Shown here piece after piece: positions 17,014-62,652 of a stretch of DNA of 64,000 nucleotides. Both the position numbers and the translations under genes were made by a program. Each line of letters opens with the position of its first letter. Positions within the stretch are counted from its first letter, which is position 1. Origin of the DNA: Stachybotrys elegans (Eukaryota; Ascomycota; Sordariomycetes; Hypocreales; Stachybotryaceae); the NCBI GenBank assembly GCA_020746835.1, contig JAGPNK010000023.1, positions 1 to 64,000 on the forward strand, written 5' to 3'. Under the pieces are notes generated by a model that saw only the letters and a list, made by a program, of their open reading frames with translations, was not told the DNA's origin and did no database searches.

Positions 17014-17292
17014 CCTGGGACTGAGAAATTAAAAATTAGTTATGAATTGAGTTATTGTAAGAAACTCTTGAGAAGTGGAATGGGAAGGGGGAAAGGAAGT
17101 TGGTTCTTAATATTTAGATAAAGCGTGGAATTCTGTTGTCGTGCTATACTTCAGCACTCAAAGGGGGGTATTTGACAAACGAAGGTTTGTTTAAATTTAC
17201 ACACGGTAAAAGAACTAGGGCCTTTGACTTGATTTAGGACTTCGTGTGAATGTTGAAGCACCAAGTTTTGGGACAGAGCAGCCGCACTGTGG

Positions 17293-17337
17293 CCCATTTT
17301 TGGGCTGTCTCGTAATTCAGGAGGGCCCTGTTATGGG
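17293..17337. promoter_or_regulatory. two CCC-N6-GGG (CArG-like) elements
   Basis: CCC-ATTTTT-GGG is at 17293-17304 and CCC-TGTTAT-GGG at 17326-17337; a half-similar AGTTTTGGGAC lies at 17264-17274. They sit 103-147 bases before the ATG at 17440 and are also upstream of the divergent PalI/SUR7 gene. The first contains a perfect CArG core, CC(A/T)6GG. Confidence 0.6.
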
Positions 17338-17439
17338 ACCATTTCTGAACAGGAACGTGGACAGGTCATCGTGCATAAATACGGAATGAATTTCCCAATT
17401 CTTGGTTTTAGTAAACTCCATATACAGCTTCAGTACAAC

Positions 17440-18624
17440 ATGCCCTCACGAAAGCGTGGCCGCGAGGAAAGCGACAATTGGCTCGCTTCAAAGCGTCGCA
17501 GAGCAAAAGCTATCACCACAATTATTGCATCTCAAAAGCGCAAGCTAGAAGATGATGAGACTATTACTGATTCTCCAGCCAAGCGTCACGCAACCAAACC
17601 TCACGCAATAGAATTTATAGCCACGGTCGTTGCATCTCAAAAGCGCAAGCTAGAAGATGACAAGAGTGATACTAATCATCTAACCAAGCGTCGCGCAATA
17701 GAAGTTATCGCTACAGCTGTTGCATCTCAAAAGCATAGGCTGGAAGAAGAAGGGACCAATACTGATCATCTATCCAAGCTTCGCGCAGTAGAAGCTATCG
17801 CTACAGTTGTTGCATCTCAAAAGCATAAGCTGGAAGACGGCGAAACTGATAATGATCATATAGCAAAGCGTCGCGCAATAGAAGCTATCGCTATAGCTGT
17901 TGCATCTCAAAAGCGTAGGCTGGAAGATGAGGAGGATGATAGTGATCCTCCAGCCAAACGTCAAGCTTTAGATAGTGACGCTGGTATATCTGTGAAGAAT
18001 CAAAAGCGCAAGCTGGAGGACGATGAGACTAATACTAACCTTCCAGCCAAACGCCAAGCGTTAGATAGTGATGCTGGCATAACTGAAAAGAATCACAAGC
18101 GTCCACTTGAGGAAGAAGATGATGCCAATCAACGACCCACGAAGCGTCAACCTCAAGACAATCCTTTCAAGTCTATGGCAAAAGACAGAATGAAGCTTAG
18201 AAAAACATTTCACAACTGCACGTGGGACGAATATCGTCACGTGCTGCGCATGTTCGGGAAAGATGCGCACTCAATGGCCATAGCATTGATGGATTCTCCG
18301 GAGGAGTTCCGGCTTGAAGCAATCCGGAAATTGAAAGACCCTTATCGCAATAAGGTTGTGGATGCAATTTCGGATATTCAAATCAACAAGAACAGGTTTG
18401 ATCCATACAGTCTGTTCCCTTCAATCATTACACACCAGCTGTTGGATAGATTATTGGTAGACTCTGCTCTATGTCTCATCTGTAAGGACAAATTCATTGA
18501 CTGTACCGACGTCATCTGGAAACACTGCAAGCAGCATCTGATGCATACCGCTTGTTTCAGGAAGGTGGTTGAGCAGGGGGAAATGCCGCTTTTTGGTTAT
18601 TGTGATTGCATCAAGGACTCTTAG
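17440..18624 (+). CDS. Lys/Arg-rich repeat protein with C-terminal Cys/His zinc-finger-like module
   Basis: Single exon. I chose the ATG at 17440 (ACAACATGCC context, MPSRKRGREE) over the in-frame ATG at 17371; this gives 394 residues. Residues 20-230 hold about six tandem copies of a unit of 30-37 residues built as AKRRAIEAIATAVASQKRKL followed by an acidic run and a proline or histidine turn. The repeated KRK and KRR clusters look like nuclear localisation signals. The unique C-terminal part ends with CLICKDKF, a C-x3-C/H cluster (HCKQHLMHTACF) and YCDC, an arrangement like a divergent RING or other cross-braced zinc finger. I do not recognise a named family. Likely nuclear, possibly DNA- or protein-binding; ubiquitin-ligase activity is speculative. 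Two CArG-like elements lie just upstream. Confidence 0.65.
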   Translation: MPSRKRGREESDNWLASKRRRAKAITTIIASQKRKLEDDETITDSPAKRHATKPHAIEFIATVVASQKRKLEDDKSDTNHLTKRRAIEVIATAVASQKHRLEEEGTNTDHLSKLRAVEAIATVVASQKHKLEDGETDNDHIAKRRAIEAIAIAVASQKRRLEDEEDDSDPPAKRQALDSDAGISVKNQKRKLEDDETNTNLPAKRQALDSDAGITEKNHKRPLEEEDDANQRPTKRQPQDNPFKSMAKDRMKLRKTFHNCTWDEYRHVLRMFGKDAHSMAIALMDSPEEFRLEAIRKLKDPYRNKVVDAISDIQINKNRFDPYSLFPSIITHQLLDRLLVDSALCLICKDKFIDCTDVIWKHCKQHLMHTACFRKVVEQGEMPLFGYCDCIKDS

Positions 18625-18842
18625 CTTAGCCACTTTGAAATGAAGACACAGCGTTCTACAGAGTTATATTTCTATAGGCAATTGAGTTGTGCTTTTTGCG
18701 TCTCAGTTATACACACCAGTACTTAAGATGGCGATTGCGGGTGACACTGAACGCGGAGTCTAAGTTTCATCCAACAATCCTCTCGAGCTGTGAACATGAT
18801 TGCAAAAGTCAATACTGTATTGTCAAACTCTTGTACCTATGA

Positions 18843-18854
18843 CCCTGAAATGGG
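18843..18854. promoter_or_regulatory. CCC-N6-GGG element before the LPMO gene
   Basis: CCC-TGAAAT-GGG, 164 bases before the ATG at 19018. Related half sites follow: CCCCGAAATGAGG at 18861 and AAAACAGGGACC at 18887. Confidence 0.5.
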
Positions 18855-19017
18855 CCCAAACCCCGAAATGAGGACCAGGTGGCTACAAAACAGGGACCTG
18901 GCACAAAACTGTATCCAGTCTTGGTTTATCAAGGTATATAGAGTGAGGAATTCTTTTGAGAAATGGTTTTGTTGTCTGGTGTAACCATCTCCCAATGAAC
19001 ACGCCAGGCTTGCAAAA

Positions 19018-19980
19018 ATGAAGACAGTCGTATCACTTGGCGGATTCATTGCTTTTGTAGAGGCACACATGATAATGAACGCGCCTGTTCCCTATGGCAG
19101 GTCTTCTCTCAACAACAGTCCCCTCTTTTCCGATGGTTCAGACTTCCCATGTAAACAACGACCCGGATTATACGCACTTGAGGGTGCGTCAAACACCTAT
19201 GCTCTTGGGTCTGTAAATCCTCTGAATTTCATCGGCACGGCTGTGCATGGTGGTGGTTCATGTCAAGTATCAATCACTTACGACAAGGAGCCAACCGAGA
19301 ACTCTGTCTGGAAAGTCATTACTTCTATTGAAGGTGGATGTCCAGCCCAGGGCCAGACTATAAACATGGGTGAAGATGCCAGTGCGCCAAACCCTTACCA
19401 ATATGAATTCAGTATTCCATCTAATATCCCTACTGGAAAGGGCACGATCGCCTGGACTTGGTTCAACAAAGTTGGTAATCGAGAAATGTATATGAACTGT
19501 GGTCCTCTCACCCTGACAGGAACCAGTGGATCTCAAAGGAATTTTGATCGCCTACCGGACATGTTCAGAGCTAACATTGGGAATGACTGTTATGTGCCTG
19601 AAAATGCAGATGTTGCTTTTCCTCATCCAGGAGAATATGTGACGAGGCTGAATGGCGCTACTAATGCCTTCCAGGCTCCAACCGGACTTGCCTGTGATTC
19701 TGTAGCGAGTCCAATTCCTACGAGCACTTTCACAGATTCTGATCAACCCAGTGGCACTTTAACCTTCAGCGAAAGAAGGATGCAAATGAATACCCATACA
19801 AGCGAGGCAATCGAGCCTATCCAAAGTGATGCTATAGAGTCAGTGTGCACAGAGGGTTATTGGAACTGTATTGATCCAGTTACCTTTCAACGATGCGTCG
19901 GGGGCACTTGGTCAGTGCCACAGAAACTCGCCCTAGGTGTCTTCTGTAGCCCAGGAATCTCGTCGGAACTCTGGGCTTAA
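19018..19980 (+). CDS. AA11-type lytic polysaccharide monooxygenase with C-terminal Cys-rich (X278-like) module
   Basis: Single exon, 320 residues. A signal peptide ends at VEAH, so the mature protein starts with histidine 17, the first ligand of the copper histidine brace. A second histidine follows in TAVHGGGSCQVS, and AWTWFNKVGNREMYMNC is a hallmark of the AA11 fold. Family members oxidise chitin chains outside the cell using copper. The catalytic domain ends near residue 225. After a Ser/Thr linker comes a Cys-rich tail (CTEGYWNCIDPVTFQRC, ending CSP), which fits the X278-type module often attached to AA11. The next gene, convergent and 252 bases away, is a GH16 glucanase, so the pair may act together on fungal wall polymers. 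A CArG-like element precedes it. Confidence 0.8.
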   Translation: MKTVVSLGGFIAFVEAHMIMNAPVPYGRSSLNNSPLFSDGSDFPCKQRPGLYALEGASNTYALGSVNPLNFIGTAVHGGGSCQVSITYDKEPTENSVWKVITSIEGGCPAQGQTINMGEDASAPNPYQYEFSIPSNIPTGKGTIAWTWFNKVGNREMYMNCGPLTLTGTSGSQRNFDRLPDMFRANIGNDCYVPENADVAFPHPGEYVTRLNGATNAFQAPTGLACDSVASPIPTSTFTDSDQPSGTLTFSERRMQMNTHTSEAIEPIQSDAIESVCTEGYWNCIDPVTFQRCVGGTWSVPQKLALGVFCSPGISSELWA

Positions 19981-20232
19981 GAGCCTATGTTGCCTAATTA
20001 TTATCTAGTCCAAATATTTATGTATTTAAATAGAGTATAGATAGACTATGGTATATGGTCATTTGTTCGCATGCACTAGAGGTTAATAGGGGTGTATAGA
20101 AGCTATTCTGCCTTTTGGTCTTGAGGGTCCCTCTTGAACCTTTGGATATCTCAGACAATCCAGAACCTCATAGCAGGCGTCTAAGATCCCCAAGCCATAA
20201 TATCAGTTCTTCATGCAGCACTGACACCTTCA

Positions 20233-21173: not shown

Positions 21174-21321
21174 AGATGCCAGCTTGGAATAGTTGTCCAG
21201 GCTCTTTGTCTTAACTTCTTTAGTATAGGATGAAGCCGTCAAGCCGTCAATGTAACGATGGTTTTGCGTTTGAGTCACTATAGAGTACCACAGCATGAAG
21301 TCAAGAAGCGCTAGAACATAT

Positions 21322-28633: not shown

Positions 28634-29174
28634 GGCCAGTAATGACGAGAAAATGCGTTCTATAGAGGCAAAATCTCATACAATCCAACGGTCCTGTATA
28701 TACATAAGTGTGCGGCATCATCCCTCATGAATTGGAGCCCGGCTCAGAACCTCTTCTCGTGCTTGCTAGATGAGTGGCGAAGTGGACCAATGTTGAGCCC
28801 TCAGCCAACTTGGAGGTTGGCCCACTAACGTCGGCCGCCAAATGATTCTCTGAGCGCACGTAAGGCAAGGATGACGGCCCGATCTGCCCTAAGCGAGGTG
28901 TGCAAGGTCCAAGGACCTCGTGGTCTGTTGAATTGATCTTCATGTGCCCACTCATGCAAGGAGAGGAGGAGGGGAGAGTGGGGGGGGGTTGCCTTGCAGG
29001 CTTTCGAATACGAACAAACCAACACAAAGTCCGAACGGTGCTGGCGGGGGAGGGTATTTCCTTATCTGCAGGCCATCCCCCGAATTTTCCAGACATACTC
29101 TTTTCACAATTTCCAAATTTCTCCTTTCCTTGTTCCCTGCATCATTCTGTTCATCCAGAGGCCCCTTTTGCAGC
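28634..29174. promoter_or_regulatory. divergent promoter of the 7TM and MFS genes
   Basis: Shared upstream region. It has no CCC-N6-GGG element, unlike the accessory genes. A G-rich run (GGGGGGGG, about 28980-28988) and a TATA-like TATATACATAAG (about 28695) are present. The plus frame reaching upstream of 29175 is only an extension of the MFS frame. Confidence 0.35.
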
Positions 29175-33481: not shown

Positions 33482-35173
33482 TCAAGGCATGTTGCGCTCG
33501 GTTGCCAAACTACTAAATTTGTCTGGTCGAAATTCAAGTTCCTTCAGAGAAACAACATCACCTCTTAGGTCAGAGACTGATTTACGGATTGAAACCCCTG
33601 TGTCTTTGTCCACACAAGCTATTCAAGGTCAGTAAGTGATGGAATCGATCGTATCTGGCTATCACTTACTCAAAATGGCTAAGCGACCCTGTCGCTGTCC
33701 CGACTCTTGTTTGACAATACTGTCAACGTTCATTGCCTTGTACGTCACATCGATTTCAAGATCGCCCCGTGGAATACGGCTTCCCTCCTTGGTCTCGAGT
33801 GAAAGGTAGTCAGACAAAACATATATCTGAATGTTGAGGATCTAGCTTCTGTTAGCACCTGTTGTAGGACAGCGAAACTATCAACCAACCTGAGACACAT
33901 CCTGACTTGTCAACTCAATCATCCTATCCGCGACCCATGCCATATGAACTTGTTTAAGTGTCAGCTGAGTTAAGAATGCTGTCAGTTGGTTTGTTACCTT
34001 CACGCTCTACTTGCCAGTATAACTGGATCTTTTTGGTCCTAGACTGGCCCGTCTGAGACCTATTTAGAAGCTGCCAGATGTATGATAGCTGAGCCGCGAT
34101 TCCGATTCCTGTTGCGAATAGCAAGACTGTACCATATGAATCCAAGTCAAGTTCTCGTCCGTATGGTCCTTCTATCAAGGCTACCATTTCGGCACTATTG
34201 TTCAGCTCAATACTACGGTGGGAGCAGAGCTGTTTTGTGAATCCATGTTTCTTCTCGATAATGAGTACGATGTAGTCGCTGCCATCCTTGCTATACCACC
34301 AAGCAACACAAAAGGGATGAAGCTGCGCGAAAGAAGTGCGGCTTACTCCTGGCATATATAAATTTATATACTGCCCAGCTCGATATGTCCATTTTCTTGG
34401 TAGTCGTACATGTACATGAACAGCATCCAAAAGAGGTATGTTTTCTTGTCTTGACCTCCTGTAGACAATAGTGTGTATGGACGCTCGACTGAGAGGCTTT
34501 TTGAAACCTACGCTGCGATATATTGTGAGAGTAAGCCGCCGCAAAACTGTTACTATCAGCAACCCGACAGCTATGGTCAGGTAAATAGTTGGAGGTGTGA
34601 AAACAGATGTTGGGTTATGTAGATAAAGCGCAGCAATGACCGCGCCGCTCAGTATGTAGTGCGAGTTAATAAATATTTCGTAGCCACGTCGGCGCAAGAC
34701 GCTGGACAGACAAATGGCAAAAATTAGTACGGTTGCCTGTTGGCCTGCGTTAGTCGGCAAAATCACGTCCTAAATCCCAAGGGCCAACTTACGGCAATAG
34801 CCGCTGCCAACGACGGAGTAAGGGAGTCCGGTCTTTCGGTTGACAAAGTGACTATGAGATGGACAGTGCCCTCGACAACAAGGATCCCGCTGAGCCAGCG
34901 ATGTATGATGGCGAAAAATCCTGCGCCAACGCCATACCCCTTGACAGTCACGTTCATTTGACCTCCTAAAAATAGTGGCATGATGTTGATGGTGGAGACC
35001 AGCCCAGCTCGTTTTCCAAGCCCACGCACATCGCTGACACCAATGGATAAAGCAAGAGAGTTGCCTAGTATCAAGAATAGCGGCAAAATAAGATCAACCC
35101 AGGTTACGATTCCTAGGTACCTGAGGTACCGGGGAAGGACTTTGTAGACTGTAAGCCACTGACTAACACTCAT
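33482..35173 (-). CDS. ferric/metalloreductase (FRE), copy 1
   Basis: Exons 35173-34793, 34736-33998, 33948-33890, 33841-33670 and 33618-33482 give 495 residues. A membrane haem domain carries histidine pairs IIHRWLSGILVVEGTVH and NSHYILSGAVIAALYLH. An FAD-binding segment follows (GQYINLYMPGV, LHPFCVAWW, where HPF is usually followed by S or T). The NAD(P)H part has GPYGRELDLDSYG and LLFATGIGIAAQLSYI, ending with KELEFRP. Splicing the last three short introns supplies the NADPH-side C-terminus; the unspliced frame stops early at 33954. Family members pass electrons from NADPH through FAD and haem to reduce iron or copper outside the cell. FRE is a recurrent Starship cargo family. Divergent from the MADS-like gene, with a CArG-like site between them. 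Related to copy 2 at 60.6 kb. Confidence 0.8.
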
Positions 35174-35253: not shown

Positions 35254-35265
35254 CCCAAAATTGGG
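35254..35265. promoter_or_regulatory. CCC-N6-GGG element between FRE1 and the MADS-like gene
   Basis: CCC-AAAATT-GGG, a perfect CArG core. It is 81 bases upstream of the FRE start at 35173 (-) and 135 bases upstream of the MADS-like start at 35400 (+). Confidence 0.7.
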
Positions 35266-35399: not shown

Positions 35400-35867
35400 A
35401 TGGCGAACTCGAAAGTTTCTGTTCGAAAACACAATAAAAAGCTCAATAGAAATCTTCAGGGTCTATTGAGTAAGTGCTACAAATATGGAAAGCTCCATGG
35501 CGTCAGGTTAGCCTTATACATCGAGTACGTAGAAAAAGAGGACTTCCTCTCTTTCGAGTCAGATGAGCAGCATTTTGGAATTAAGCAAATCACAGAAAAA
35601 GTAAGTAAAGCACTGGGATTTACACATTGCCCTATTCTGACCTCATTATAGAAAGCCCATGATAAAACGAGGAAGCTTTCGCCGGAGGACGTAGAGAAGA
35701 AGCTGGGTATTGCCCCCAAGGGCGTGAAGCGCAAGGCCAATAATTCGAACACAGGCCAAGCTTTGGTTCAGCCTAGATTGAAAACACGACGAAGGCCTGA
35801 GATACGCTCGTTTCCGGAGCTGCCGGAGTTTGACATATCTGTCCTGAAGCAACAGCATGGCAAATAA
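35400..35867 (+). CDS. MADS-box-like small protein
   Basis: Exons 35400-35600 and 35652-35867 (51-base intron, GTAAGT, acceptor TTATAG) give 138 residues. Residues 9-50 (RKHNKKLNRNLQGLLSKCYK, then YGKLHGVRLALYIEY) align without gaps with the second half of the MADS box: the basic N-x-x-R segment, the G-L-x-x-K-x-Y helix, L-x-G and the hydrophobic strand, as in SRF or Mcm1 (G-I-M-K-K-A-Y-E-L-S-T-L-T-G). The first basic arm is short. A basic tail (GVKRKANN, RLKTRRRPEIRS) could add DNA contacts or nuclear import. MADS proteins bind CArG boxes as dimers. The shared promoter element in this block contains such a core, including one in this gene's own promoter. The MADS call is by-eye and the regulatory role is inference. 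Confidence 0.6.
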
Positions 35868-36194: not shown

Positions 36195-36255
36195 CCCAAA
36201 ACTGGGACATCCCGAAAACAGGGACATCCCAAAACAGGGACATCCCAAAACTGGG
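36195..36255. promoter_or_regulatory. tandem array of four CArG-like elements
   Basis: Units of 16-17 bp: CCC-AAAACT-GGG (36195-36206), CCC-GAAAACA-GGG (36211-36223, spacer 7), CCC-AAAACA-GGG (36228-36239) and CCC-AAAACT-GGG (36244-36255), each followed by ACA. The array lies 112-172 bases before the ATG at 36367. It looks like a site amplified by tandem duplication. Confidence 0.75.
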
Positions 36256-38601: not shown

Positions 38602-38853
38602 TGCTTGAAGGTAGGTGTCTAATTTGCCAAGGATCGCGCAGCACGGTCGGACAGACGGATTGGGACATGCACCTTTATACTTGAGTGTATCAACCTTAAA
38701 TCTCCATGGTCCCATTTTACGTACCGTGCCCAGAAAATGGCCAACGGGGTACAGTTTTGTAGCCACTTGTCCCTTTCATGTACATAAAAACCTCCTCTAC
38801 CCTCTGGTCAATTGGCTGGCTCAGGTAAGGTGCATTGGGGGTTCACTAAGATC

Positions 38854-40967: not shown

Positions 40968-41767
40968 TTGGCTAGGTCCCATTTTCGGGGCACATCCAAG
41001 CTTAGGCGAGTGTTCTCTGCCCCACCACCACCAATATCCTTTGCTCCCAGCCACTCCACTGGTGTCAAAGGTGTTATCAACGACGCTCGCCACTATGAGA
41101 CCACTCGCCGTAACAAATGGACGAACGTCATACGCAACAGCATTTTCGGTATCCATGGCGTATATACCAATAGCTACATTGGCTCTCGCCGTCTTGGCGG
41201 CAGCAGTAGGGCGGAGAAAACAGTCGTTGGCAGCATCTCGAACGTTATAGATGCCTCATTCCTTGAATGGTGTGATAGTCGCCGTCGTAGCCTTGAGAGT
41301 CAAGCCAACAGGACCACCTGCACCAAGAGAAGTAGGCCTAGCGCTAGATTTTACGGATGCTTAGACGAGGTCGATGCGATCGGATACCTCGATGCCATTG
41401 AGAGAGTCAGCAAAGACACGATTATTATCGTGCTCATCTACAACCATGCTGTATATTCCTCTTCTTATGTTACTTTCCCCCTTGGAACCAAGCCCTAACG
41501 TTTCACTAGGATAAAACCTCGGCCACTGTCAACTCAGCCTTACTGCCCATTGTTGAAAAAAATACAGATATTCGTTTTGTTAAGATTCACTACGAGACTA
41601 TGGAAGTTGGCCAAGCTGCCACGCCCGCCATTCTCGCCTACAAAAACCAAGGCGACCTCTTTGCCAACCTGACAGGTCTCGCCGAGTTAATCTCTGACAA
41701 CACTTTCAATTCAGACGTACTGGAACAACTCCCGGAAAAACACGGCATACCGTCGAGATTATCTTAA
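40968..41767 (+). pseudogene. phosducin-like protein lacking its N-terminal start
   Basis: Exon A (open from 40968, no ATG in frame) and exon B (41510-41767) join across a 59-base consensus intron (GTATAT, branch CCTAACG, CACTAG). Recognisable blocks are STGVKGVINDARHYETTRR, then RLDEV-like CLDEVDAIGYLDAIERVSK, then IRFVKIHYETMEV and TPAILAYKNQGDLFANLTGL in the thioredoxin-like fold. These match fungal phosducin-like proteins (BDM-1/PhnA type), co-chaperones for G beta-gamma assembly. The middle linker is poorly conserved and the usual acidic N-terminus and start codon are missing. Either an upstream exon escapes me or the copy is truncated. A CArG-like element (40978-40989) lies inside the open frame, which hints that transcription starts downstream of it. 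Confidence 0.55.
40978..40989. promoter_or_regulatory. CCC-N6-GGG element before the phosducin-like sequence
   Basis: CCC-ATTTTC-GGG, embedded in GGTCCC...GGGGCAC. Confidence 0.5.
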
Positions 41768-42861: not shown

Positions 42862-42873
42862 CCCTGTTTTGGG
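42862..42873. promoter_or_regulatory. CCC-N6-GGG element in a divergent promoter
   Basis: CCC-TGTTTT-GGG, 163 bases before the ATG at 43036. Half-similar TCCTAGAACTGGGA (42791) and CTAGTTCTGGGAC (42824) lie closer to the minus gene at 42539. Confidence 0.6.
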
Positions 42874-44724: not shown

Positions 44725-44868
44725 TACAAGAATTGATATGCATAAACAGTTGAGCTAGTTATGCTAGATAGCAAATGTCCAGGTGCAACATACGTAGGTA
44801 CCTGTATATACCAGATTTCAGTGCAGTTTTTGACGAGCTTTTAAGTTGAAAGTTTTGTTGGTCTGGAG

Positions 44869-44910
44869 GGCCAGTTTTCGGACCAAAACACCGGTCCAGG
44901 TTTAGGGACC
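44869..44910. promoter_or_regulatory. imperfect CArG-like pair in a divergent promoter
   Basis: GGCCAGTTTTCGGACC (about 44869-44884) and GGTCCAGGTTTAGGGACC (about 44893-44910) are CC/GG dyads with 7-base spacers. They are 125-166 bases before the patatin ATG at 45035. The first closely matches GGACCAGTTTTCGGCC at about 21655. Confidence 0.45.
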
Positions 44911-45034
44911 ATTGGGGATACCAGATTCGGAACACCAGGCCCAACTTTGGTTCCTCGCTGTAAAATTTTATAAAGGAGTGGCTCGAAGACAAGAGAAAGT
45001 AACTCCTTTTTTAATCAGAGAATCGCAAACCGCC

Positions 45035-48000
45035 ATGAAGCCGTGTAAGCACACATCGTGGCTAACCCTTCAATCCCACGGCCAAAACGCCGAGCTCCTC
45101 GTAACCAACCGGGTGCAGAGACTTGTAGATGGTATACCCTACTCCGATGATCAAAAGCCAAGCTTGCTCGTACTTATCGGAAATGCAACCAAGAGCATTG
45201 CTTTGCAAGAGCTCTTTGGGGTAAGGAGAACCCGTCAATTTAGATCAAGACGATCTTCTGAACTGCACCTACACGTAGAGCCTACGAGTATCTTCTTAGG
45301 CAGGCCCCGCTTGATAGTAGAAGGGGACATCTCTCTGGGGCTCAAAGGCACGGTCCCGACGTACAAGTGTCACGAGATAAAGAGGCAAGAAATTCGAAGA
45401 ACAAGTCCCGGCAGCAGCCTCGGTTCTGCCTCCAATAGCATCTACACAAAGCTCTTATTCCCATTTACCGACATCTTTTGCTTCTTCTGCGACGATCTGG
45501 GGGATTTGAACAAGTCGCACAGCATGTGGCTGCGTGGGTGGAAGATGGCTGCCAGTCTATGCTTCCAATAAACACGCGCCCAAGGATAGTCCTGGCAATA
45601 GAAAGATTACCAAGCGGAATAAAAACTATGCGAAGGGCAAAAACCGCTTTCCTTGAAGTAGTGAAGGAAATGACGACGAAAAACCTACTAGACCATGTTT
45701 CCGCGATTGATATAGTACAGCTCATTCCAGGAAGCTCACGGTTTGGGCAACTCGGGAATCATCTATTGACTTACTCGGATGAAGCAAGGAGGGGTAGGGA
45801 GGATGCTCAGGCGCTTTTCTCCCTTACTCATTTTGCCGCTCTCCTGAACAGCGCCTGTACTCACTTCTGCAGACATCAGGAGCCCTTCGACTTTATCAAA
45901 TCGTCGCGGGAAGAATATCCCGTCTCCTTGGATTGGGAAGAGCATATAGCTCGATTCCTCGAATACATCAAGTCTTCTGAACAGTTGATGGGGTTCGCGG
46001 CCCCCATTATCGCGTCAAGTCTCGTTCTTGACAGCTACCCACCCGACGCTCATTGTAAGTGCTATACACCAAGATAAAGTTTTCAACGTCTAACCTATAA
46101 CAAAGTCTTTCCTCCTTCAACGGTGTTTCAGACACTATATGTTGATGTACTCAAGAAGGCCAGCAAGAATGGGGTAATTGCTTTCACGGAATCAAAAGAT
46201 GTCGTTCTCCGAAGTGGGTTCCTCAAGAAGGTAAAAGAATGCTTTGAGAAGTTCTCAGAGACCTCCATTCGAAAGAATAAACCTTCAGCGGCAATTCACT
46301 ACAACAATCTCGCTCAACATCAACTTGAGTGGCTCGATATTTATAACGACGAGACGTGTTTTGCGTGCTTGCAGCATAGACCTATTGGTAGCTTATCTTG
46401 CCAGCATAGCATCTGTGTAAATTGCGCTCAGATCTTCGGGGCGCCTTCTGATCATGATGACTCGGAGTTCATTATCACGCGCTGCTTTCTGTGTCAATCG
46501 GAACTGCCCGAGGAAGTGAAAATCAAGATTCATCCACCCACAGCTGGTGTTGGGGTCGTTTGTGTTGATGGTGGAGGTGTGAAAGGCACGATCCCCCTAG
46601 GAATTATGAAACGAATACAAAAGCGTCTCGATCTCCCAATACGGTTCCAGCGTTTCTTCAAGGTTGCCTTTGGGGTGAGCTCAGGTATGCCCTTCGTCGT
46701 GGTGATGATGAGCCGTCATTAACGAATCTAGGTGGCTTGATTGTTGCTGATTTATTTATAAACGGCAACTCTATTGAGCAGTCGACTGGCAGATTCGAGG
46801 CATTGGCTAACCTTGCCTTCCAGCAGAGAGAACTTCTCAGCTTGTCACGTCTGCCCCAGTTTCTAAGGTTTCTAATTCCACACCTTACTAACTCTTTGCA
46901 ACCACTCCCGTATATTCTTCGTCTCTATAAGATACTCATGTCCTACTTTGGTGATGGGCTATACCCATCCAAGAATATTGAGCAGGCCCTTATACAAGCA
47001 TTTGGCACTAATAGGAGCATACTAGATCTATCCAGTGCTACAGCTACAGGCACTCTTGTAGGACTACCGGTTGCCACAACAGATGATAGGCCTACATCTC
47101 GACTGTTCACTAACTATAATGGAGTTGCTGGTACTGAACTCCAGGGTATGTAAATTTGGTTCATGCTAATAATGCGCAGCACTAACTGCGAATAGACTCT
47201 ATCATAAGGCCGAAAAAAGGATCAGGAAAACTCCTTCTGCAAGAAATGTGCGTAATAGTTAGAAGAAATACATGCTGGAAGTTGTCGCTAATTTGTTTCA
47301 GTGGCAGGGCTATCTCTGCTGCAGTTGGGTAAGTGACGGTGTTCAACCGTGAGGTCCCAGGCTGATTATAATCTTAGTTTCTTCCCACCTAAGCATATCG
47401 ATGGTGTCGGCCTTCTTCAAGATGCTGGGCCGCTCGAGAATGACCCAGCCTTATCAGCTCTTCTCACCGTCGCTACTATATGGCCCCATATTGACCAACC
47501 AGATTTCGTTTTATCGTTGGGAACTGGGGAGCCAAAGTTGCCGGAAACTCCACCTATGGTAGATGCTTCCAGCGCAATCAGGAATGGCATGTTCCTGCGA
47601 CTCTGTCGGCTATTCTGGGAGAAGATGAGAGATGGAAAAATGAGGCAAGCTCTCCAGACACAGCCGAGGTATCATCGCTTGAATGTCCACTTCAGCGGAG
47701 GTGAGCCACGTTTGGACGATGTTCAAGCGATTCCTGAAATGAAATCGAAAGTAGACGAGGACACATTGTTGTCCGCAAAGATTGATAACGTAGTACGACA
47801 TATGATTGCATCTCTATTTTACTTCGAACTAGATGCAATACCTCGCAGATATGGACAAAGATACCTGGGAAGCGGGTACATTCTATGCTCTGTAAAGGCC
47901 CAAGATCCTGCATTCCCTGCCTTAATGGAGCGTCTCAAGTCGTCCAGATTCCAGGTTGACAGCCACGCTGATATACAAGCTGTCGACGACCAGTGCTTTG

Positions 48001-48233
48001 ATGAGCATGGTAATTTCCGAAAGCTAGTGAAGCTGAACACGGAGGGCAGATTTGCCATAACCCTGACTCAAGAGAGCCTGGAACCTTGTCATATTAGCGG
48101 TGCCCCCTTTTCTGTAGAAAAATTGGCCAAGTTGCAAGCTCTGTCAGCCGTCTTTGGTCGGTCTGATCACAGAAAAAGGAAGAGATCAGGAAGCTTAGAT
48201 AAACCTACGCGAAAACGACTTAGGACTACTTGA
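45035..48233 (+). CDS. RING-patatin phospholipase-like protein (Starship PLP type), with a frameshift in exon 1
   Basis: Exons 45035-46054, 46106-46684, 46732-47145, 47196-47247, 47302-47328 and 47378-48233. The N-terminal region (PSLLVLIGNATKSIALQELF, LFPFTDIFCFFCDDLG) changes frame at a run of five G near 45498 and continues as GFEQVAQHVAAWVEDG. One base must be added to keep frame. A RING-like module follows (CFACLQHRP ... CQHSICVNC ... CFLCQSE). The patatin domain has the oxyanion loop DGGGVKGTIPLG, the nucleophile elbow FGVSSGG and, after three splices, RAISAAVGFFPPKHI and DAGPLENDP, the catalytic Asp motif (usually D-G-G/A). The C-terminus is basic (RKRKRSGS...RKRLRTT). Family enzymes hydrolyse acyl lipids, and relatives act in fungal non-self recognition. 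No NACHT/P-loop is seen. The tiny exons 4 and 5 keep phase. Either the frameshift is real or one G was lost in sequencing. Confidence 0.75.
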
Positions 48234-49419: not shown

Positions 49420-52388
49420 CTAGAAACCAGATAGGCCAATGTTGCAATCCCATGGTGGCAAATCGACTAGCCGCGCGATATCGTCGCACTTGGCTCGTAC
49501 AACCAAATCCCAACAATCCTTAAATTCAGCACCCTTTGGCTCTGAGTCGATGTTAATCCAGGCCGTGAATCCATTATTGCGGCTGCGTGTAGCCTGACAT
49601 AGCTCCCTCACTAACCTGCGGGTACCAGGAACCTTGAGACTGGTACCAACAACAATAACAGCATCCGGGCGAGTCCTTAGATCGGCGCTTGAAACCTTTC
49701 CGATGGCATCCTCGTCTGGATTATACTCGTTATACAATACAAGTCTTGGACGCAGTCGCCCAATGCCACGGCCTCGCTTGCCAAGCGCGGTTTGTTTCTC
49801 GTCTTCGAGTTCGCAGTCTTTACAAAGAGGCGTCTCAGGTCCAACAAAGAGCTCTGCCTCAAATGGTTTAAGGGTGCCACACAAGGTGCAGACCATATTT
49901 TGTAGGCTGCCGTGAAGCTGAATGGTGGCTGGCCAGGGGCCCTTGATATTAAGAGGGATATTAGTAGACAAGGGCTTCATTTTAGTGTCAATACAATCAA
50001 TATTTTGAGAGTAAAGGCGCATTAGACGCCCTTCTTGGGCAAGGGAGGCAAGAAAGTGGTGGAAAGGGGTAGGCTTTGCATTCTCGGTTATCTTGGCTAT
50101 TTCCCTAATCATAGTGTGGAAGGCCTCTGTCGTTTCATTATGTTTGTAGAGAGAAGCGTCGAAAAGTTGCTCTCTAGATCCTTTAAGCTTATGTTGGGTT
50201 CTAGCTGTAGTGAAAAGACCAGTAGAGGACCGGAAGTCGGGGATGCCGGCAGAAACAGAGATACCAGCGCCTGCGATCACGGCAATCTTCTTCTTCTTGC
50301 GCAGAGCAGTAACTAGCCATTCTATCTGACTAGTGTCCTGATCATTAAAATTATTGTAAGCTTTGGTAAGATCCAGGTACTCGATAGTGCGCTCCTTCGG
50401 GGGCCGTGCTTTTCTGCGTCTCTTGGCAGGTGGTGGGCCGTGCCTATCTGTCAACTGATCATGAGACAATTGCGCTGAACGGTGCGACGTCTCGAGCCAC
50501 GCTTCTGCGTTATTTCTGGCGTCTTCAGTCTCGTCCAATAAAAAACCATAATCTCTCATAGAATCATCTCTAGATGGACTGGTGGCACCTGCCAGATCTT
50601 GAACTATATCGCTTGGTTCATCATCTAGATGCGATGTCTCTTCAAGGCTCGCTTCTGGTGGAGGGTCTGTATGGCTTGGAGACTGCTCTTGGCTCTGTCC
50701 CGTTGACGAGTGATCGCCATTATCGTCGTTGCTCGCAGATGCCTCGAGGTCGGTACCAGACGAGGTATTGCTCTGATTGGACTGATCTGTATGGCAAAAG
50801 GACTCGCTGTGGCTTTGTAGATCGAGTACTCGCCCCAGAGGACTGGTAGTCGTCGACTGTCGACTCAATGATGGGACGTTACGCTCAATGCTTTCAGTTT
50901 GAGCTTGAGTCTTGTTCTTAATTTGAATGGAGATCGTTCTTTCTGAAGACTCTACAATTGGACCACTGGTCTGAATTGAGTTCATGTGGGCGGCCAATAG
51001 CTCAGAGACAGGAATCTTTGCACAGTCCAAGCCATCGCGTTGTAGGTTCCGTATGTTGTTCTGAATTGTTGGTTCAAGGTTATACTTCTCAAAGTTTGGA
51101 ATGCCGATATCGCTACAGGCTTCGGATAGCCTAGAAACCATTCAGTTAATAGAAGAATGCATTTGCATTGAGACGGGTGCCTCACGAGATATTCTCAACA
51201 CAGGCTATGAAGATGTGTGGACACGTTATCTTTAACCCTGCCCATATGTCAATCCGCTCAATTTCCAAGAGAGCTTCTTGAGTCAGCTTCTGAGCATCAG
51301 CGATATTTTCTTTGCTAACTTGACCGAGAGCTGAGCCTAGGAATCCGGTCTCTGGACCTTGTTAGCGATGTTTGTACTTATTTTGTTATCGTCATACCTT
51401 CAAGCGCTGAATATATAAGGAGAGCAAATGGCCCCCACGTTGGTTCGAGAAAGTTCACAAGCTCACTTGTGAAAGCGCAAATCACCTCCTCCTTTTTCTT
51501 TTTAAATTCTTTGTCATACACGCCTGTTTCAGAAAAGCTAGTATCTAGATTGCGACGCCTATACCTGCTGTAGCGGTTATGGAAAGCAGCTGACCACTTC
51601 CCTGCCTTCATCGTCTGCTCGTATGATTGGAGAATATATTCTAATATTGTACTCTGGGATTGGGTGGCGTTGGCAGTATAGTTCTCGCGATAGTTGCAAA
51701 GTTGTGCTCCAATGCTGAGACTCGTGATCTCCTCTGCGGTTTCCTTGGACGTGACAAGGCCGCTCTTCCTTTTCTTAAGCCTCTGAAGTCCAGCTTTTAC
51801 CTTCCTTACATAGGATGATGCGACATCGGCCGTGGTACTATACGTAGCTTGGTTCGCCTTGCGGCTCCTAGGACTGTCAGTGGTATCATCCGTGACATCG
51901 TCTGCCGTAGTGTCTGCGGCATCGTCTGCGGCATCGTCTGTGGCATCGCCCGCCTTATCTTCTGCGATTTGATCTGTCGGGCTGGCGTCGAGCAGTCCCT
52001 GTGATTGCCATAACCCCTCGCCCTGCGAACGCGTACATGGGATTTGTCCTGGCTTGGGTGCTTTTCTGCGTGTATATCTGCTAAATGATTAATTTTTTTC
52101 CATATGTGAAGGTTTCAGATGTGTAGCGTACGAGCCGTATAACCAATTACCAGCTTGAAATATCTCATTGCAGATTTCCCGAGTATGTTTAATTGCATTT
52201 GCCTTGACCATATTGTTGTCAAGGTCGTTAACACAGCAAGGCCATGATTCAACGTGACAAAGATGGTATTTGCGATGTACGCCAGGAATGTTGCGAAGCA
52301 TATGCCGAATTTCAACCGACTCAGTATGACCATTGATAGAAATACTAAAAGCCGTCTTTGTTCTCGGGTTCGACACTGGGCTACCCAT
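49420..52388 (-). CDS. sirtuin (Sir2 class I, Hst3/4-like) with a novel N-terminal domain
   Basis: Exons 52388-52132, 52077-51398, 51357-51186 and 51130-49420, all in phase; 939 residues. The C-terminal 320 residues form a complete Sir2 domain: IAVIAGAGISVSAGIPDFRS (NAD), YSQNIDCID, catalytic HGSLQNMVC, zinc cysteines CTLC and CKDC, and VVGTSLKVPG. Before it lies a disordered acidic Ser/Gln-rich linker with a nuclear signal (PAKRRRKARPPK). The N-terminal about 470 residues are not a known domain to me: an opening segment (NGHTESVEIRHML), an Asp/Ala repeat (GDATDDAADDAAD) and an alpha-helical block (ILEYILQSYEQTMKAGKWSA, LEPTWGPFALLIYSALEG, FLGSALGQVSKENIADAQ). That layout is reminiscent of the helical N-terminal effector domains of fungal STAND proteins. 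Sirtuins remove acyl groups using NAD, and some act as NADases in immunity. Strong CArG-like sites precede it. Confidence 0.8.
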
Positions 52389-52499: not shown

Positions 52500-52517
52500 G
52501 GCTTCAGCCTGCGAAGT

Positions 52518-52574
52518 GGTCCCGATTTTGGGATCAGGGGCTTCAGTCTGTCAAGTGGTCCCGATTTTGGGATC
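52518..52574. promoter_or_regulatory. two tandem CCC-N6-GGG elements upstream of the sirtuin gene
   Basis: GGTCCCGATTTTGGGATCAGG occurs at 52518-52538 and again at 52557-52577, inside a 39-bp direct repeat. Cores are CCC-GATTTT-GGG. They are 133-183 bases before the start at 52388 (-). Confidence 0.7.
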
Positions 52575-52579
52575 AGGAG

Positions 52580-54847: not shown

Positions 54848-57767
54848 ATGTCTAACACAAAACCAAATATCCTATCCCAGCGTATCGAAGAAGAGAGAGC
54901 TCTGAAGCAATTGGGAACAGCAAGAGTCAAGCTAAGCTTCCTCGATTTTCCTTATTCAGAACAACTCCAGCGGACAAAGAAAGCCAACATCGACCGTCTT
55001 AAGCGAGTGTTTCGTGTCGAAGGTGGGTGCAGGCCAGATGACCTCGCTAATCGCATACCTGCCATCATTGATGAGGGTCAGTGGCAGCAGTACCTTAGTG
55101 AATCGAACATATCTATGGATCACGAGCCGGAAAATATTACCAGGACGCATGCTGAAATTGATTTCCCTCCTGGATTCCGTCTGCAATGTCTTCGCGGGCG
55201 ACACCGTGTAGAAGCAGCAAGACAGGTGCTTCCCGAGCGCGACCAGTGGTGGACTGTAGATTTCTACCCCTCCAGTAAGGTTAGCTTCGCAAAGATCCTG
55301 CACAGTCACTGACTCATGAATCAGGCATTACCGCGGAGTTGAAATGCACACTGATTGATGAATATACAAATGAGATCAAGCCAGATGATGGTGAGTTTTT
55401 TTACAAGATCCGTCAATTTCAAGGTGTTTTTGGCCGAAAAAACCCATACTTTGAGAAACGGTGGTGGGCTCGGCTTGCCGCAGTGTCGACTTCCCACAAC
55501 AAAAAGGAGCGACTTGAACAACTCTTCCGCCATGTCCATTTCGCTCCAGCATTCGACGCATTTCAACATATCCCAGCGCTTTACGTAGGCATGCGGATAA
55601 GCACGCTGAATAAGATGATATCGATGAAGTGCCATGAGGTAAGAGCACTCCTCGATATTGCTGGCTAATATACCAATAGTCTAAGTTATTTTTAGCTGCC
55701 TTGAGCCGTGTCCGGAACTGGTGGTATTATGCCTTTGAAAATAACGAAAGCATGATGCGGCGATTAAGCAGAACAGACATCGAGGATCTCCAAAACACTG
55801 CTCCCGGAGCCTGCGAAAGGGATTTTCAAGACCTAGTTTACCGCGTAAAAGCAGGCAAGATCCTCGCTGCATTTAGTGCCAGTGAGCGAGAGAGAATATG
55901 GGATAGGATTTGCTCATCTACTACTGATTGTTTAGTGCCATCTCTGCACGCATTTTTCGAGAATTTGAAGTATCTCAAAGGTCCTGCAGATTGCATGAAG
56001 CGGCTCATACGACCCAAAAGGGGTGAAACTATTCAATCGGCTTTGTGGGATGCATTTGCCGACCCAGGTTTACGCTCAGGAAAATGCATAATCCAAGGAT
56101 CTAAAAACACCTTCTTCTTCGCACAAGCTGATACCAATACCCGCTTCAGTCTTTCATATCGCCAACTTTGGCTGAATGCAATCCGAGATTACCGCGACAT
56201 GCCAAAGCAGGTTTGTCAAAAGCTGGCCAACCCCAAGAATGGGGAGGCAAATGAGACAGTTCTGTATGAATTTGCATCATTGGCGCATAAGCTTGGTTTC
56301 GAAACGCAAGAGATTAATGATCTCGTACAACATGACCCGGACGAAAAGATAGCTCGCCGCCTTCTTCGTACAGCCAGAAACCCTAGTCAATACAGATATA
56401 AGGACTTCAAAGGGTGCATCGATCGACTTGTCCAGATAATACATGAAGCTGAGCCGCTGGATGGTGAAAATCATAACAATCTTGAGGCTGGCGATGATAA
56501 CGATGATAGTCTGGGTGAGGAGCCGAAGCTTCAGCAGGTGAGAGCGCCAAATCGATGCGGCATCCCCAACGATGAGGACCAGGTTCGAGATGGGCCCTTG
56601 ATGTATTTGCCCAAGATCCACCATTCGACCGGTTCAAAACAGGCAGAATTAACATCCTTTTTCGTACAAAAGTCCCTGTATCTTTTCTTCTTTGGAACAG
56701 ATGCTGGGATTGACTTCGGAAAAGACTTAGAACCGGTATGTAGCGATGGTTTAAAGGATCTGATCCATCGAGAGCGATTATTAAATAGCACAGAGCGGCC
56801 CTTAGACAACAGGAACCAAGAAGGACATACTCTCCAGGATATGGAAGTCGAGATAGGTCAGGGCTCTGCTGCACGACTGGACGATGCGAAGCGAGAGTTG
56901 GAGGCACTGGAGGCACGCATTCAGCTGAAAGCAACCGAACAGCAGGATCAAGAAACTCGATTGAGAGACCTAGAAAACATAATTTCACAGAAAGAAGAGA
57001 CCCTAAAAGAGTTACAGGCCTCTGTCGACAAGCGCAAAAATGACCTTGAGCAAAACGCAAACAACGTGGATGAAGGTTGGCAAGCAAGCGAGGCTCAAGA
57101 AATCAGAGCAAGTATCCAGACAACTTCGCTGGAGCGAGAAATGGAAGCCAAAGCAAAAAATCTAGAAGAAGAACTGCAAAGAAAAGAAAGGGCGCTTGAA
57201 CAAGCTGGAAAGGAAGCAGAAAGACTGCGAGCAGAAGTGGAATCACTGAAGCGACAAGCTGAGGAGCAATTGAAAAGTCAACAACTTCTACCACCTAAGA
57301 CAACAATCAAGGACGTTCGTATAGGATTCATGATTAGCAACCGAAAACGTTGGGAGTTGGCGCAAGAACTCTACGTCGATCCACACGAACCTTCAGAAGT
57401 ACAGAAAATGTGTGAAGAATACCTGAAGAGAGGCATAGGTATTTTTGACCATAACCTTCGACATTTAAGGCCCAATACTTGCTACGAAGCAGTGATGTCG
57501 AACGGAAGTCGCATCGTAATGCTCTTTCCACAGTGGAGAATCGGCCATAATACTACACTGTCAGAAAAACAGGCGCTGCAATCCAATGGAAAAAGACTAT
57601 TCCAATTCTATGCTAATACTAAGACCGATCAAGTAGATCTTAGATACTTGGAAGCACAGGAGAACACTAAGCGGCTCAAGCAAGGTTCAAGTGGTGATTC
57701 ACAGGTTGATTCTACCAGTCAAAAGGCCATTGCTGAAGTGCCAGTCCTTACTGGGAATGAAGTTTAA
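54848..57767 (+). CDS. DUF3723 family protein (recurrent Starship cargo)
   Basis: Exons 54848-55274, 55325-55638 and 55680-57767 give 942 residues. Introns are 50 and 41 bases. Splicing them yields FYPSSITAELKCTLIDEYTN and MKCHESKLFLAALSRVRNWW, both of which fit the family. Hallmarks: CLRGRHRVEAARQVL and WWTVDFY near residue 120, DDGEFFYKIRQFQ, FDAFQHIPALYVGMRIS, then APGACERDFQDLVYRVKAG and VPSLHAFFENLKYL. After residue 610 a long coiled coil (about 660-810) leads to a small C-terminal domain. DUF3723 has no known activity; its genes are common in accessory regions and Starships. Nothing suggests truncation. The promoter is shared with the pseudokinase gene. Confidence 0.85.
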
Positions 57768-59406: not shown

Positions 59407-59700
59407 TGTACCAGCTCGAGCAGTGGGCCAGGACACGACATACTGGCCTATTGCTGAGGCCAGTATATAGTGTACTGGCCCTTAACCGAGGCCAGTATAT
59501 TGTGTGCTGGCCCTAACCGAGGCCAGTATGTCTATGTACCAGCCTGGGTTTGCGCTGGCCCATTTACGTACCAGCCCAAACTCTGGGCTGGTATATGATA
59601 TACTGGCCCAAGTTCTGGGTTAGTACAAGGCATGCTGGCCCAAAATGTGTACCAAGATTCTCTGTCCTGGCCCTTGGTCCAAGCTGGTATACAGCTCTAC
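59407..59700. repeat. array of degenerate GGCCAGTA/TACTGGCC inverted repeats
   Basis: TACTGGCC or TGCTGGCC and GGCCAGTA alternate about eight times with spacers of 10-15 bases (for example GAGGCCAGTATA-TAGTG-TACTGGCCC near 59457-59480, repeated near 59488-59512). Variants GTACCAGC and CTGGGCTGG extend it to about 59700. The array ends about 180 bases before the ATG at 59879 and borders the CArG-like site at 59754. Confidence 0.75.
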
Positions 59701-59753
59701 GACCCCACTTCATCAGGAACTCGGCCAATCATTGTACATTCTGGGCCAAGTGT

Positions 59754-59765
59754 CCCAAAACTGGG
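59754..59765. promoter_or_regulatory. CCC-N6-GGG element before the membrane-protein gene
   Basis: CCC-AAAACT-GGG, 114 bases before the ATG at 59879. It has the same core as two units of the 36195-36255 array. Confidence 0.6.
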
Positions 59766-59878
59766 CACAAGGCGAACTTGGGCCATAATTTGGGACTCCG
59801 AAACAGTAAAACATATAAGGTCACTCGTTACACGTAGTGCGAACGATCACAAGTCATTATACATACAAAATATTTACT

Positions 59879-60521: not shown

Positions 60522-60627
60522 TAGCAAGTCTCAAAGAAATAATATAAGCACAAGTTGGCGCAATATGAACAGTTTGGTGACTATTGAAATTGAAGGTAAT
60601 TATAGATGTGGCGATATGGATGAAGAT

Positions 60628-62448
60628 CTAAATAGAAAAACTCTCCTCAATCAAATCAATATTGCTCTTGCTTTGGTGAGCTCTGACAACCTGGCGGACT
60701 TCATCGCTGAATCCTCCAGGCCCACAAGACACGACGGCCATAGCACCTATCTGCTGCTCTTGTTCTTTTGCTACAAGCGTACCAATATTGGGCCGATTGC
60801 AAAATACCGTTCCTTGGAATGAGGGATTGGGGATCATGTCAAGTGAGTGTCGTCTCGATACGAAAATCATGATTCGAAGTGTTTCATTTTTCTCATCCAA
60901 GGCCTGTAGTTGTTTAATCCATGGCATTACCCACTCGAAATGTTCAAAGTGTTGAATAGACCAAATGAGTAGGATCTTACGTGCAGCCACGGTCCCTTCA
61001 TCAATGCCCACCATCAGATCCCTGATATACAGCAGGTGATGAGTGATACCTACGCCTCCAGCAAAGAATATGACTGTACCGTACGAGTTAAGGGAGTTTC
61101 CTACGCCGTAAGGTCCCTCTACAAGACACATGATCTTCGTTATCCCTCCAGGAGTGGCCAAGGCCTTGCGGTACAAGCTTTTGGTCATACCTGTTCTGGC
61201 ACGGATGACAAAAGATAGTTGGGGCTTCCGTATGGCTGCGCTGTGCTGGATATCGCTAAACAATCTATCGGGCATTAAATCGTTTCTTTCATCAGTCCAT
61301 GCTATAGAAAATGGATGTGATTGCCATAGACTAATGCCAGGCATGTATAAGTAGGCGTGTTGTCCTGGTCGGGGGGACCAGGCCCGAGGCATGGATATCA
61401 CCAGTCGACAAGCATCACCAGGAAGTGCTTCAACCGTCGTTGCGCTACCGGAGATGCCGATGTTTAGATATGCAATACGAAGACCGCGTATGACGTGATC
61501 CGCAGCCCAAAATGAAATAATTACGAACAGATACTTGATCTGAGCCAGCTCTCCTACCATGAGATGATACCATAAGCCTGCGATAGCAAGACCTGCCAAG
61601 CCAACATGGAGTATTTTGAATATTTCATACGCCGCGTGTCGGAGTGGTTTCCAAGCCTGAATGCATAGTCCAATGAGCGCGGCTGTGCCCTACAATATTT
61701 AGTACGATGCCTTCTAGGTAGAGATGGCCATAGACCTACAATAAAGCCCCACATGAAAAACGGTTCAGATGGTGATGTCATCATCTCTAGAGACTCCCGA
61801 GAGAATCTGCTTCTCGCTAGGTGAGCCATGGTGTGAGCGAGGGCTTCCAGAGCAACAATGCGTCCGAGCCACCGATGGAAAAAGTTGTGTAGGTCGAATG
61901 GAATGCCAAGGTATGGGGTCAAAGGATTGTTTCTGCTAGCTAGAAGGAAGAGCGGTATCTGTAACTTGGGCATTGTGCATACATTAGCTATAGGATCTCA
62001 TAAGGAATTACGGGGAGAGCAGAGCGACCATATTGATAGTAGCTAAGACACCGGTACGGCTTCCGATGAGAGTGAAGAATTCGTCATAGGAGCGATTGAA
62101 ACCTATGCCGACAATGGAGAAGGCCAGATTCATTGAGAAGTAGGCAAGCATCAATACAAGTTGTAAGCGCGTTGGTAGTGTGCCAAAACTAATTCGAGAA
62201 TGAATTCGAAGTTCTTGATTATGCCGCTTGCGAAAAATAGGAGCTTCGAGCACATGACGTTTGAAATTAGCGAGGCTAGGCGAGGCCTTGGTAAAGTATC
62301 GTTGGTAAGGATTGTCGATGCACAAGAGCATACGGCTGAAGCCGATGATGGCATTGATCGTCTTCCATGTTGCAACAGCGGCTATTACCATCCCGCAAAA
62401 GACTAAAAGATAGTGAGAGAGAACTTCATCCTGTTGTCCACTTGCCAT
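60628..62448 (-). CDS. ferric/metalloreductase (FRE), copy 2
   Basis: Exons 62448-62029, 61958-61740 and 61689-60628 give 566 residues. I prefer the ATG at 62448 (MASGQQDEV before the first helix); the frame extends to 62571 without a signal peptide. Haem histidines are in NFFHRWLGRIVALEALAHTMAH and ILHVGLAGLAIAGLWYH. The FAD motif is QSHPFSIAW (canonical HPFS). The NAD(P)H site has VEGPYGVGNSLNSYG and FFAGGVGITHHLLYI, and VVSCGPGGFSDEVR lies near the C-terminus, all intact. Intron 1 best fits a GTCGCT donor after ATINM, giving INMIPLFLLASRNNPL as in relatives; the stronger GTAATT donor breaks phase. The second FRE of the window and better preserved in its nucleotide-binding motifs than copy 1. 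Iron or copper uptake role by family. Confidence 0.85.
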
Positions 62449-62589
62449 TTTGAATCCAGTTACACAGTGTATCTGAGTCCTTGGGTCGGTTTGACAAGGT
62501 TGACCATGGACTGTAGGGCAACTTGGAATGATTTTGCGAATCGAAGGGTTAGAGGAAACGGCAACAGGCACTTAGTTAGACCGAAAGCG

Positions 62590-62652
62590 CTGAGGGACCA
62601 GAACTTGTCTGTGCCGTGATTTGGGCCAAAAGTCGTATGGGGCCACTTTTGG
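62590..62652. promoter_or_regulatory. CArG-like element upstream of FRE copy 2
   Basis: CC-ACTTTT-GG at 62643-62652, with GATTTGGGCCAAAAGTC (about 62618-62634) and GGGACCAGAACTTG (62594) nearby. These are 145-205 bases before the start at 62448 (-). Confidence 0.5.

Follow-up and report, generated by a model that had tools for sequence, protein, structure and literature searches.

A palindromic sequence shared by promoters of one lineage of Starship transposons was examined in the fungus Stachybotrys elegans, starting from a window of 64,000 nucleotides (C16:1-64000, where C16 denotes the 339,031-base contig JAGPNK010000023.1 in a genome of 43.4 Mb and 61 contigs). Starship-type genes occupy the window from ~17 kb on (hereafter the block), and in most of the upstream regions examined there are between one and six copies of an imperfect palindrome, KGKCCCAAAAYTGGGCC, built around CCC-N6-GGG, an array of which also seems to stand upstream of the captain gene, the tyrosine recombinase located further along the same contig. 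These sites probably represent a cis-regulatory element common to the genes of one Starship lineage, through which captain and cargo would form a regulon recognized by a dimeric protein, and the pattern looks like an element-wide promoter code of that lineage.

Strict sites in the gene block

The initial annotation of the window had listed thirteen CCC-N6-GGG sites with a spacer of at least 5/6 A/T (strict sites), and all thirteen proved to be exact matches at the positions given. Counting by program, named beforehand as the check that could refute the pattern, added a fourteenth site overlooked by eye, which lies inside the DUF3723 coding region, and the enrichment held, with 14 sites in the window against a mean of 1.84 in 200 shuffles (standard deviation (SD) 1.36, maximum 6), none in 99.5 kb of control DNA from the same genome and five in C16 76-96 kb. 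The bare CCC-N6-GGG pattern matched 24 times in the window against a shuffled mean of 12.28 (SD 4.24, maximum 23); the chance values first estimated were accordingly close for A/T-spaced sites (~2) and a little high for the bare pattern (16). The control comprised window 1-16 kb, C16 104-144 kb and 43.5 kb from 15 loci of 3 kb, the latter chosen for holding one CCCAAAAYNGGG match and counted for density with their central 110 bases removed, and these controls are unmatched for promoter position.

Thirteen of the 14 strict sites fell within 18 merged upstream intervals totaling 6,969 bp, derived from 25 start codons that were picked by eye from open reading frames (ORFs), without transcripts and with the sites already known. 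When the spacer k in CCC-k-GGG was varied from 0 to 16, the block profile peaked at k=6 (22 vs. 6.4 expected), followed by 13 matches at k=7 and 3-11 at the other lengths, and the control DNA had no peak at k=6 (9 vs. 21.8 expected). Among all spaced trinucleotide pairs in the block, CCC-6-GGG ranked third, behind two CCC/CCC pairs, and it was also overrepresented in 60-94.6 kb of contig C6 (11 vs. 5.3, p 0.02). The observation of shared CCC-N6-GGG sites is thus confirmed, and is stronger than first noted.

Motif discovery and matrix analysis

Motif discovery on the upstream regions was performed by expectation maximization (EM) with our own script in place of MEME, starting from random windows and given no motif. 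On the block promoter intervals it recovered the palindrome ggcCCAaattTGGGnCca (width 18) with a likelihood gain of 338, far above the gains for five shuffles (78-92), four genome sets (116-174, drawn from whole control loci with the central 110 bases included) and three sets of in-block non-promoter DNA (104-167). The oriented consensus KGKCCCAAAAYTGGGCC was derived from 50 sites (C16 17-62.7 and 76-96 kb) oriented by their A-tract, its best conserved letters being the second and third C of CCC (0.90 and 0.86) and the middle G of GGG (0.96). The description of the sites as CArG-like stands for the inner CC-(A/T)6-GG core, at least 5/6 A/T in the 14 strict sites, but not for the motif as a whole, which is longer than a CArG box and has an A-tract as spacer instead of a symmetric A/T core.

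At a matrix score of at least 8, 36 non-overlapping sites were found in the block (0.79 per kb), against one in window 1-16 kb, six in C16 104-144 kb and seven in the 43.5 kb of other loci. The matrix sites lay mostly ~45-320 bp ahead of the ATG, with some up to 489 bp, so that the range of 80-185 bases reported initially was roughly right, and 24 of 27 window genes had one of at least 8 within 500 bp ahead of the ATG, a count which includes the training promoters. Genes outside the block had been said to lack the motif, which agrees with the single site in the first 16 kb but not with the 7TM/MFS pair, where one site occurs at 28783 (score 9.1).

The motif in the rest of the element

The same element includes C16 76-96 kb, a region that did not contribute to the matrix and has no blastn match to the window, the nearest being a relic at 75.5-75.7 kb. 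Here the window matrix found eight sites scoring at least 9 in 20 kb, against four in the 99.5 kb of controls (0+3+1), and its 14 hits were reached by none of 300 permuted matrices (mean 1.84, maximum 7). When EM was run on nine pieces of intergenic DNA from C16 78-96 kb (5,025 bp), it returned tGggCCcagatcTGGgCC with a gain of 248, compared with 80-88 for five shuffles and 106-126 for four genome sets, again taken from whole control loci; leaving out the piece upstream of the captain lowered the gain to 203 with the motif unchanged. An earlier ten-piece version of this held-out set had contained one piece (L057) with a repeat resembling a miniature inverted-repeat transposable element (MITE), and the result stood when EM was rerun without it. 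With the oriented matrix, trained on 36 window sites, 18 sites of at least 11 were found in these 20 kb against 15 in the 99.5-kb control. A site of at least 8 within 500 bp of the ATG was present in seven of ten held-out genes, compared with 5.5% of control 500-bp pieces, with the reservations that two of the seven genes use one divergent promoter and that the ATGs were chosen by eye once the matrix hits had been seen.

Five promoters were aligned between the C16 and C6 copies, and identity was found at 258 of 278 letters within sites and at 1242 of 1400 elsewhere; a sixth region was compared by blast. The array ahead of ORF 59879 differs in repeat number between the two copies, and since the SIR2 promoter likewise holds two 39-bp units in the window and one on C6, the arrays turn over while the motif stays. 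Beside the array ahead of ORF 59879 there are also GGCCAGTATA-type repeats of ~31 bp (window 59450-59600; C6 76.8-76.9 kb), whose number differs between the copies.

The Starship and its three insertions

By its gene content and terminus, the window block from ~17 kb is part of a Starship, as judged from the sequence. It carries two ferric reductases, a weak patatin match, a SIR2 domain and DUF3723, so that the Starship accessory genes DUF3723, FRE and PLP are all present, the patatin one with a weak match (E 0.0094). The captain gene (DUF3435 tyrosine recombinase) is located beyond the window, on the minus strand of C16 at 92.6-95.0 kb, near one end and pointing inward; its profile match (C16:92981-94246(-), 206 bits) spans three TGA codons, which may be introns or damage, and its ATG was taken at C16:95023. 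The genome contains the 5' end of the element, TAATATCTACCTCCAYGTGGATG, three times (C16:95933, C6:6768 and C11:502853), in separate insertions with different flanks; a 3' terminus was looked for and none was recognized. The captain near one end, the 5' end common to three insertions, DUF3723, the ferric reductases and the patatin-like gene are features of Starship transposons in general, whereas for the shared promoter element no description was found in the literature searched.

The C6 insertion aligns with the window over C6 73.6-94.6 kb and window 41.3-62.8 kb (71-96% identity in nine aligned pieces), and C6:60.0-67.4 is 95% identical to C16:75.7-83.0 kb. A gene for a chromo-like protein adjoins the captain (C16:90828-92006, L037:6828-8006; Pfam Chromo E 0.08, below cut-off) and is also found beside the C6 and C11 captains, where it is interrupted by stops. 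Within the Starship, C16:64136-75011 (L035, L036) is filled by remains resembling long interspersed nuclear elements and hAT transposons, according to ORFs read by eye, and motif sites are few there; next to it, C16:75530-75734 is a relic with similarity to the 35400 ORF that covers its promoter and second exon but not its first exon. Abutting the 5' end, ~290 bp at C16:95.94-96.23 kb (L038) are 87-90% identical to the upstream region of a different captain family, and the 5' end is placed as though the Starship had been inserted into the 5' end of another one.

The individual sites and genes of the window are collected in Table 1. The ORF behind the sites at 17.3 kb contains about six coding repeats of ~90 bp each (SQKRKLEDD-like; window 17488-18059).

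Table 1. Sites of the palindrome and associated genes (window coordinates; ORFs are named by their start)
Coordinates	Strand	Feature	Setting	Remarks
17293..17304		Strict site CCCATTTTTGGG	SUR7/17440-ORF divergent promoter	Further matrix sites: 17257, 17323
17326..17337		Strict site CCCTGTTATGGG	SUR7/17440-ORF divergent promoter	
18843..18854		Strict site CCCTGAAATGGG	~170 bp ahead of ATG of 320-aa ORF at 19018	
33957..35173	-	Ferric reductase 1		
35254..35265		Strict site CCCAAAATTGGG	Ferric reductase/35400-ORF divergent promoter	Top matrix score in window, 12.3
35400..35864	+	Two-exon ORF		Earlier called MADS-like; no recognized family
36195..36255		Tandem array: strict sites 36195, 36228, 36244 and one imperfect copy between	Ahead of ORF 36367	
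38726..38743		Imperfect site GTGCCCAGAAAATGGCCA	Between cupin (-) and ORF 38854 (+)	
40978..40989		Strict site CCCATTTTCGGG	~112 bp ahead of ATG taken at 41095	Uncertain gene model
42862..42873		Strict site CCCTGTTTTGGG	Between ATGs 42539 (-) and 43036 (+)	
44868..44954		Two imperfect sites	Between 44724 (-) and patatin-like gene 45035 (+)	
45035..48230	+	Patatin-like gene		Weak Pfam match, E 0.0094, below curated cut-off
49423..52388	-	SIR2-domain gene		SIR2 in 49423-51141; link to ATG taken at 52388 assumed
52521..52571		Two strict sites CCCGATTTTGGG in 39-bp tandem duplication	Upstream of SIR2-domain gene	Single unit on C6
54673..54723		Strict site 54709 and matrix site 54673	Between 54459 (-) and DUF3723 (54848, +)	
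54848..57764	+	DUF3723 gene, three open pieces		Pfam PF12520; candidate regulator
56232..56243		14th strict match	Inside DUF3723 coding sequence	Likely a chance match
59508..59797		Six matrix sites of at least 7.5, including strict 59754	Ahead of ORF 59879	
60631..62448	-	Ferric reductase 2		
62611..62657		Two imperfect sites	Ahead of ferric reductase 2 (ATG 62448, -)	

Distribution among captain families and across the genome

The C16, C6 and C11 captains all have arrays upstream, in regions that are 91-97% identical to one another; on C16 the array lies ~475-700 bp ahead of the ATG and 210-435 bp inside the 5' end of the element. Five loci of a second captain family held no matrix site of at least 8 in 11 kb, and five loci of a third family held one in 11 kb. 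Dense arrays are accordingly found in one Starship lineage and little of them in others, although the separation is not absolute. In the 17.5 kb of DNA upstream of seven other DUF3723 copies (C33 twice, C22, C38, C29 twice and C15), two sites were found.

Genome-wide, the loose form of the palindrome was not enriched (697 vs. 695 for the reversed control), a count that with only the first places listed is silent on clusters, and this speaks against a host regulon of that form. The tighter oriented consensus matched 63 places compared with 20 for its control; nine of the 63 are on C16 (seven in the window), six on C6, nine are GTGCCCAAAACTGGACC, and 39 remain. Six of the nine GTGCCCAAAACTGGACC places were read, and all of them lie within a dispersed MITE-like repeat. 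This repeat starts ~16 bp ahead of the start codon in the DUF3723 copies on C32 and C47. These two copies, with four upstream matrix sites, and those on C15, C29 and C33, with different upstream sequences, had been considered as a promoter swap lending independent support, which was dropped because the C32 and C47 upstream sequence is that dispersed repeat.

A proposed regulon of captain and cargo

In the explanation that we favor, a dimeric protein, most likely one encoded by the element, would recognize the palindrome in the DNA, and captain and cargo would be switched together as a regulon. Sites occur in both orientations relative to genes (as read by eye), their arms show no covariation and an A-tract forms the spacer; these features agree better with a protein dimer on DNA than with an RNA hairpin, and the location ahead of the start codon suits an operator or a site for upstream activation. 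Because an array also stands upstream of the captain, coordinated control of the element is the simplest reading.

Several observations weigh against a regulon of captain and cargo. Binding and co-regulation are both what we infer from the sequence itself. The three captain regions are more than 90% identical and therefore not independent, and the captain array, being near the 5' end and far from the ATG, could consist of recombinase-binding repeats rather than a promoter. In C16 76-96 kb the enrichment is confined to the fuller motif, the strict pair CCC-N6-GGG by itself not reaching significance (6 vs. 3.5, p 0.14), and C6 67.4-73.5 kb has one to two oriented-matrix sites in 6.1 kb, which is about control density. 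No site of at least 8 was found for three of the 27 window genes, even with the training promoters counted, or for three of the ten held-out genes, whose ATGs were placed by eye with the hits in view, and the excess of conservation inside sites is small. The third captain family, scored with the oriented matrix, had three sites of at least 12 in 11 kb against nine in the 99.5-kb control, and one homologous site of type GGGACSAAAACTGGTCCC lies ahead of three of its five captains (L067, L068 and L070). The MITE-like repeat (L057:268-446, L058, L074-L077) carries similar palindromes as well.

Candidate readers of the palindrome

The palindrome might be read by the DUF3723 protein, the captain with its finger-like C-terminus, a host factor, or the chromo-like protein beside the captain. 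One form of the regulon explanation, which we advance only tentatively, takes the sites as operators of DUF3723 acting as a ParB/KorB-like global regulator of the Starship. In a model of a homolog (P0008), the predicted fold of the DUF3723 N-terminal domain appears to resemble ParB/Noc/sulfiredoxin and is followed by helices and a long coiled coil, and the KorB structures 8qa8 and 8qa9 appeared in the analysis of this fold. Sequence-profile similarity between DUF3723 and ParB was not found with Pfam, with hhalign against one typed ParB sequence or with the PDB profile, and among the best 60 of 107 PDB-profile matches almost all were in the coiled coil. No relatives of DUF3723 were found in the viral contig collection searched, nor any paper treating DUF3723 and ParB together in the open-licence PubMed Central (PMC) literature. 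KorB reportedly acts as a global regulator on plasmid RK2, and the plasmid regulons of KorB/ParB share with the present sites the recurrence of a single palindrome across numerous promoters of a mobile element, along with a candidate whose predicted fold may be ParB-like; they differ in that the element here is eukaryotic, the sequence is another one and the binder is only a candidate. It is a speculative and rather improbable extension that every Starship lineage would tag the promoters of its captain and cargo with a distinct palindrome, for which DUF3723, encoded by the element, would serve as reader in the role of a eukaryotic ParB/KorB-like protein.

The captain itself could bind these sites, the recombinase recognizing, both close to the 5' end and in promoters, inverted repeats around a 6-bp core and thereby repressing or timing the element. 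The sites of tyrosine recombinases consist of inverted arms flanking cores of 6-8 bp, the array adjoins the mapped 5' end in all three insertions, the motif mostly tracks the captain family, and a Cys/His finger-like sequence was read by eye in the captain C-terminus. The arms of 6-7 bp are short for a recombinase, however, recombination at promoters would be harmful (an argument only), and the search for the 3' end of the element found none; we regard captain binding as unlikely. It is likewise doubtful that the element exploits a transcription factor of the host, even though host factors typically use palindromes ahead of the ATG, the inner CC-W6-GG has the form of a CArG box and the SRF-TF profile matches host loci on C61 and C60. 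The unenriched loose palindrome stands against such a factor, as do the control loci, which lie far below the element in site density, and the tight consensus, where 15 of the 63 places are on C16 and C6, nine are MITE-like sequence and 39 are left.

The initial annotation had proposed a shared promoter element for the Starship genes with a MADS-like protein, the 35400 ORF, as its binder; the element was supported and reaches beyond the window to the captain upstream region, but the binder was not. The top-scoring site of the window adjoins this ORF, and hhalign placed 23 of its columns in the expected register with the Mcm1 MADS domain (a sequence entered by hand), but the alignment was not significant (E 0.21), the ORF had no Pfam SRF-TF match, and the genome search with that profile found the loci on C60 and C61 and not the 35400 ORF. 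Its first exon gave a poor helical model (made without alignment), and the gene was found only on the C16 element, though arrays are present in the sister insertions as well; on C11 the copy is truncated where the contig ends and may have lost the gene for that reason. CArG/MADS regulons share the inner CC-(A/T)6-GG with the present sites, whereas here the KGK...CC arms are longer, the A-tract is asymmetric and no MADS protein is recognizable on the element. We consider this ORF a most improbable binder. Hardly more credible is the notion that the sites are no binding sites but RNA hairpins in 5' leaders or products of the spread of the MITE-like repeat. CCC-N6-GGG can fold, the repeat with similar palindromes exists and the 39-bp duplication has multiplied one site; yet the arms of 62 sites had no stem-like covariation (187 complementary cells vs. 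200.9, SD 7.2, for shuffled arms), blastn with one copy of the repeat found relatives only in L057 and L058 and none in the window, C6 or C16 pieces, and a search of the window for repeats of at least 25 bases found none common to different promoters.

Relation to earlier work and significance

Co-expression modules consisting largely of Starship cargo have been described in Aspergillus fumigatus in a 2025 study, which also names the regulation of transposition as a target of future work (PMC12153272). As far as the accessible part of that study goes, the likeness lies in element genes acting as modules, whereas the modules there are expression networks only, with no cis-element, and concern other species and elements. 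No description of a shared Starship promoter element was found in the open-licence PMC literature as covered by titles and the beginnings of abstracts.

The control of Starship transposition and of cargo expression is little known, and the shared palindrome offers a concrete handle on it. Were DUF3723 confirmed as the binder, this common accessory gene, whose function is unknown, would gain a role, and if its ParB/KorB-like action extended across lineages, this widespread gene would be the master switch of the element. The palindrome itself predicts which genes would be switched together, could be used as bait for the regulator, and may be a signature by which orphan cargo genes can be assigned to a Starship lineage.

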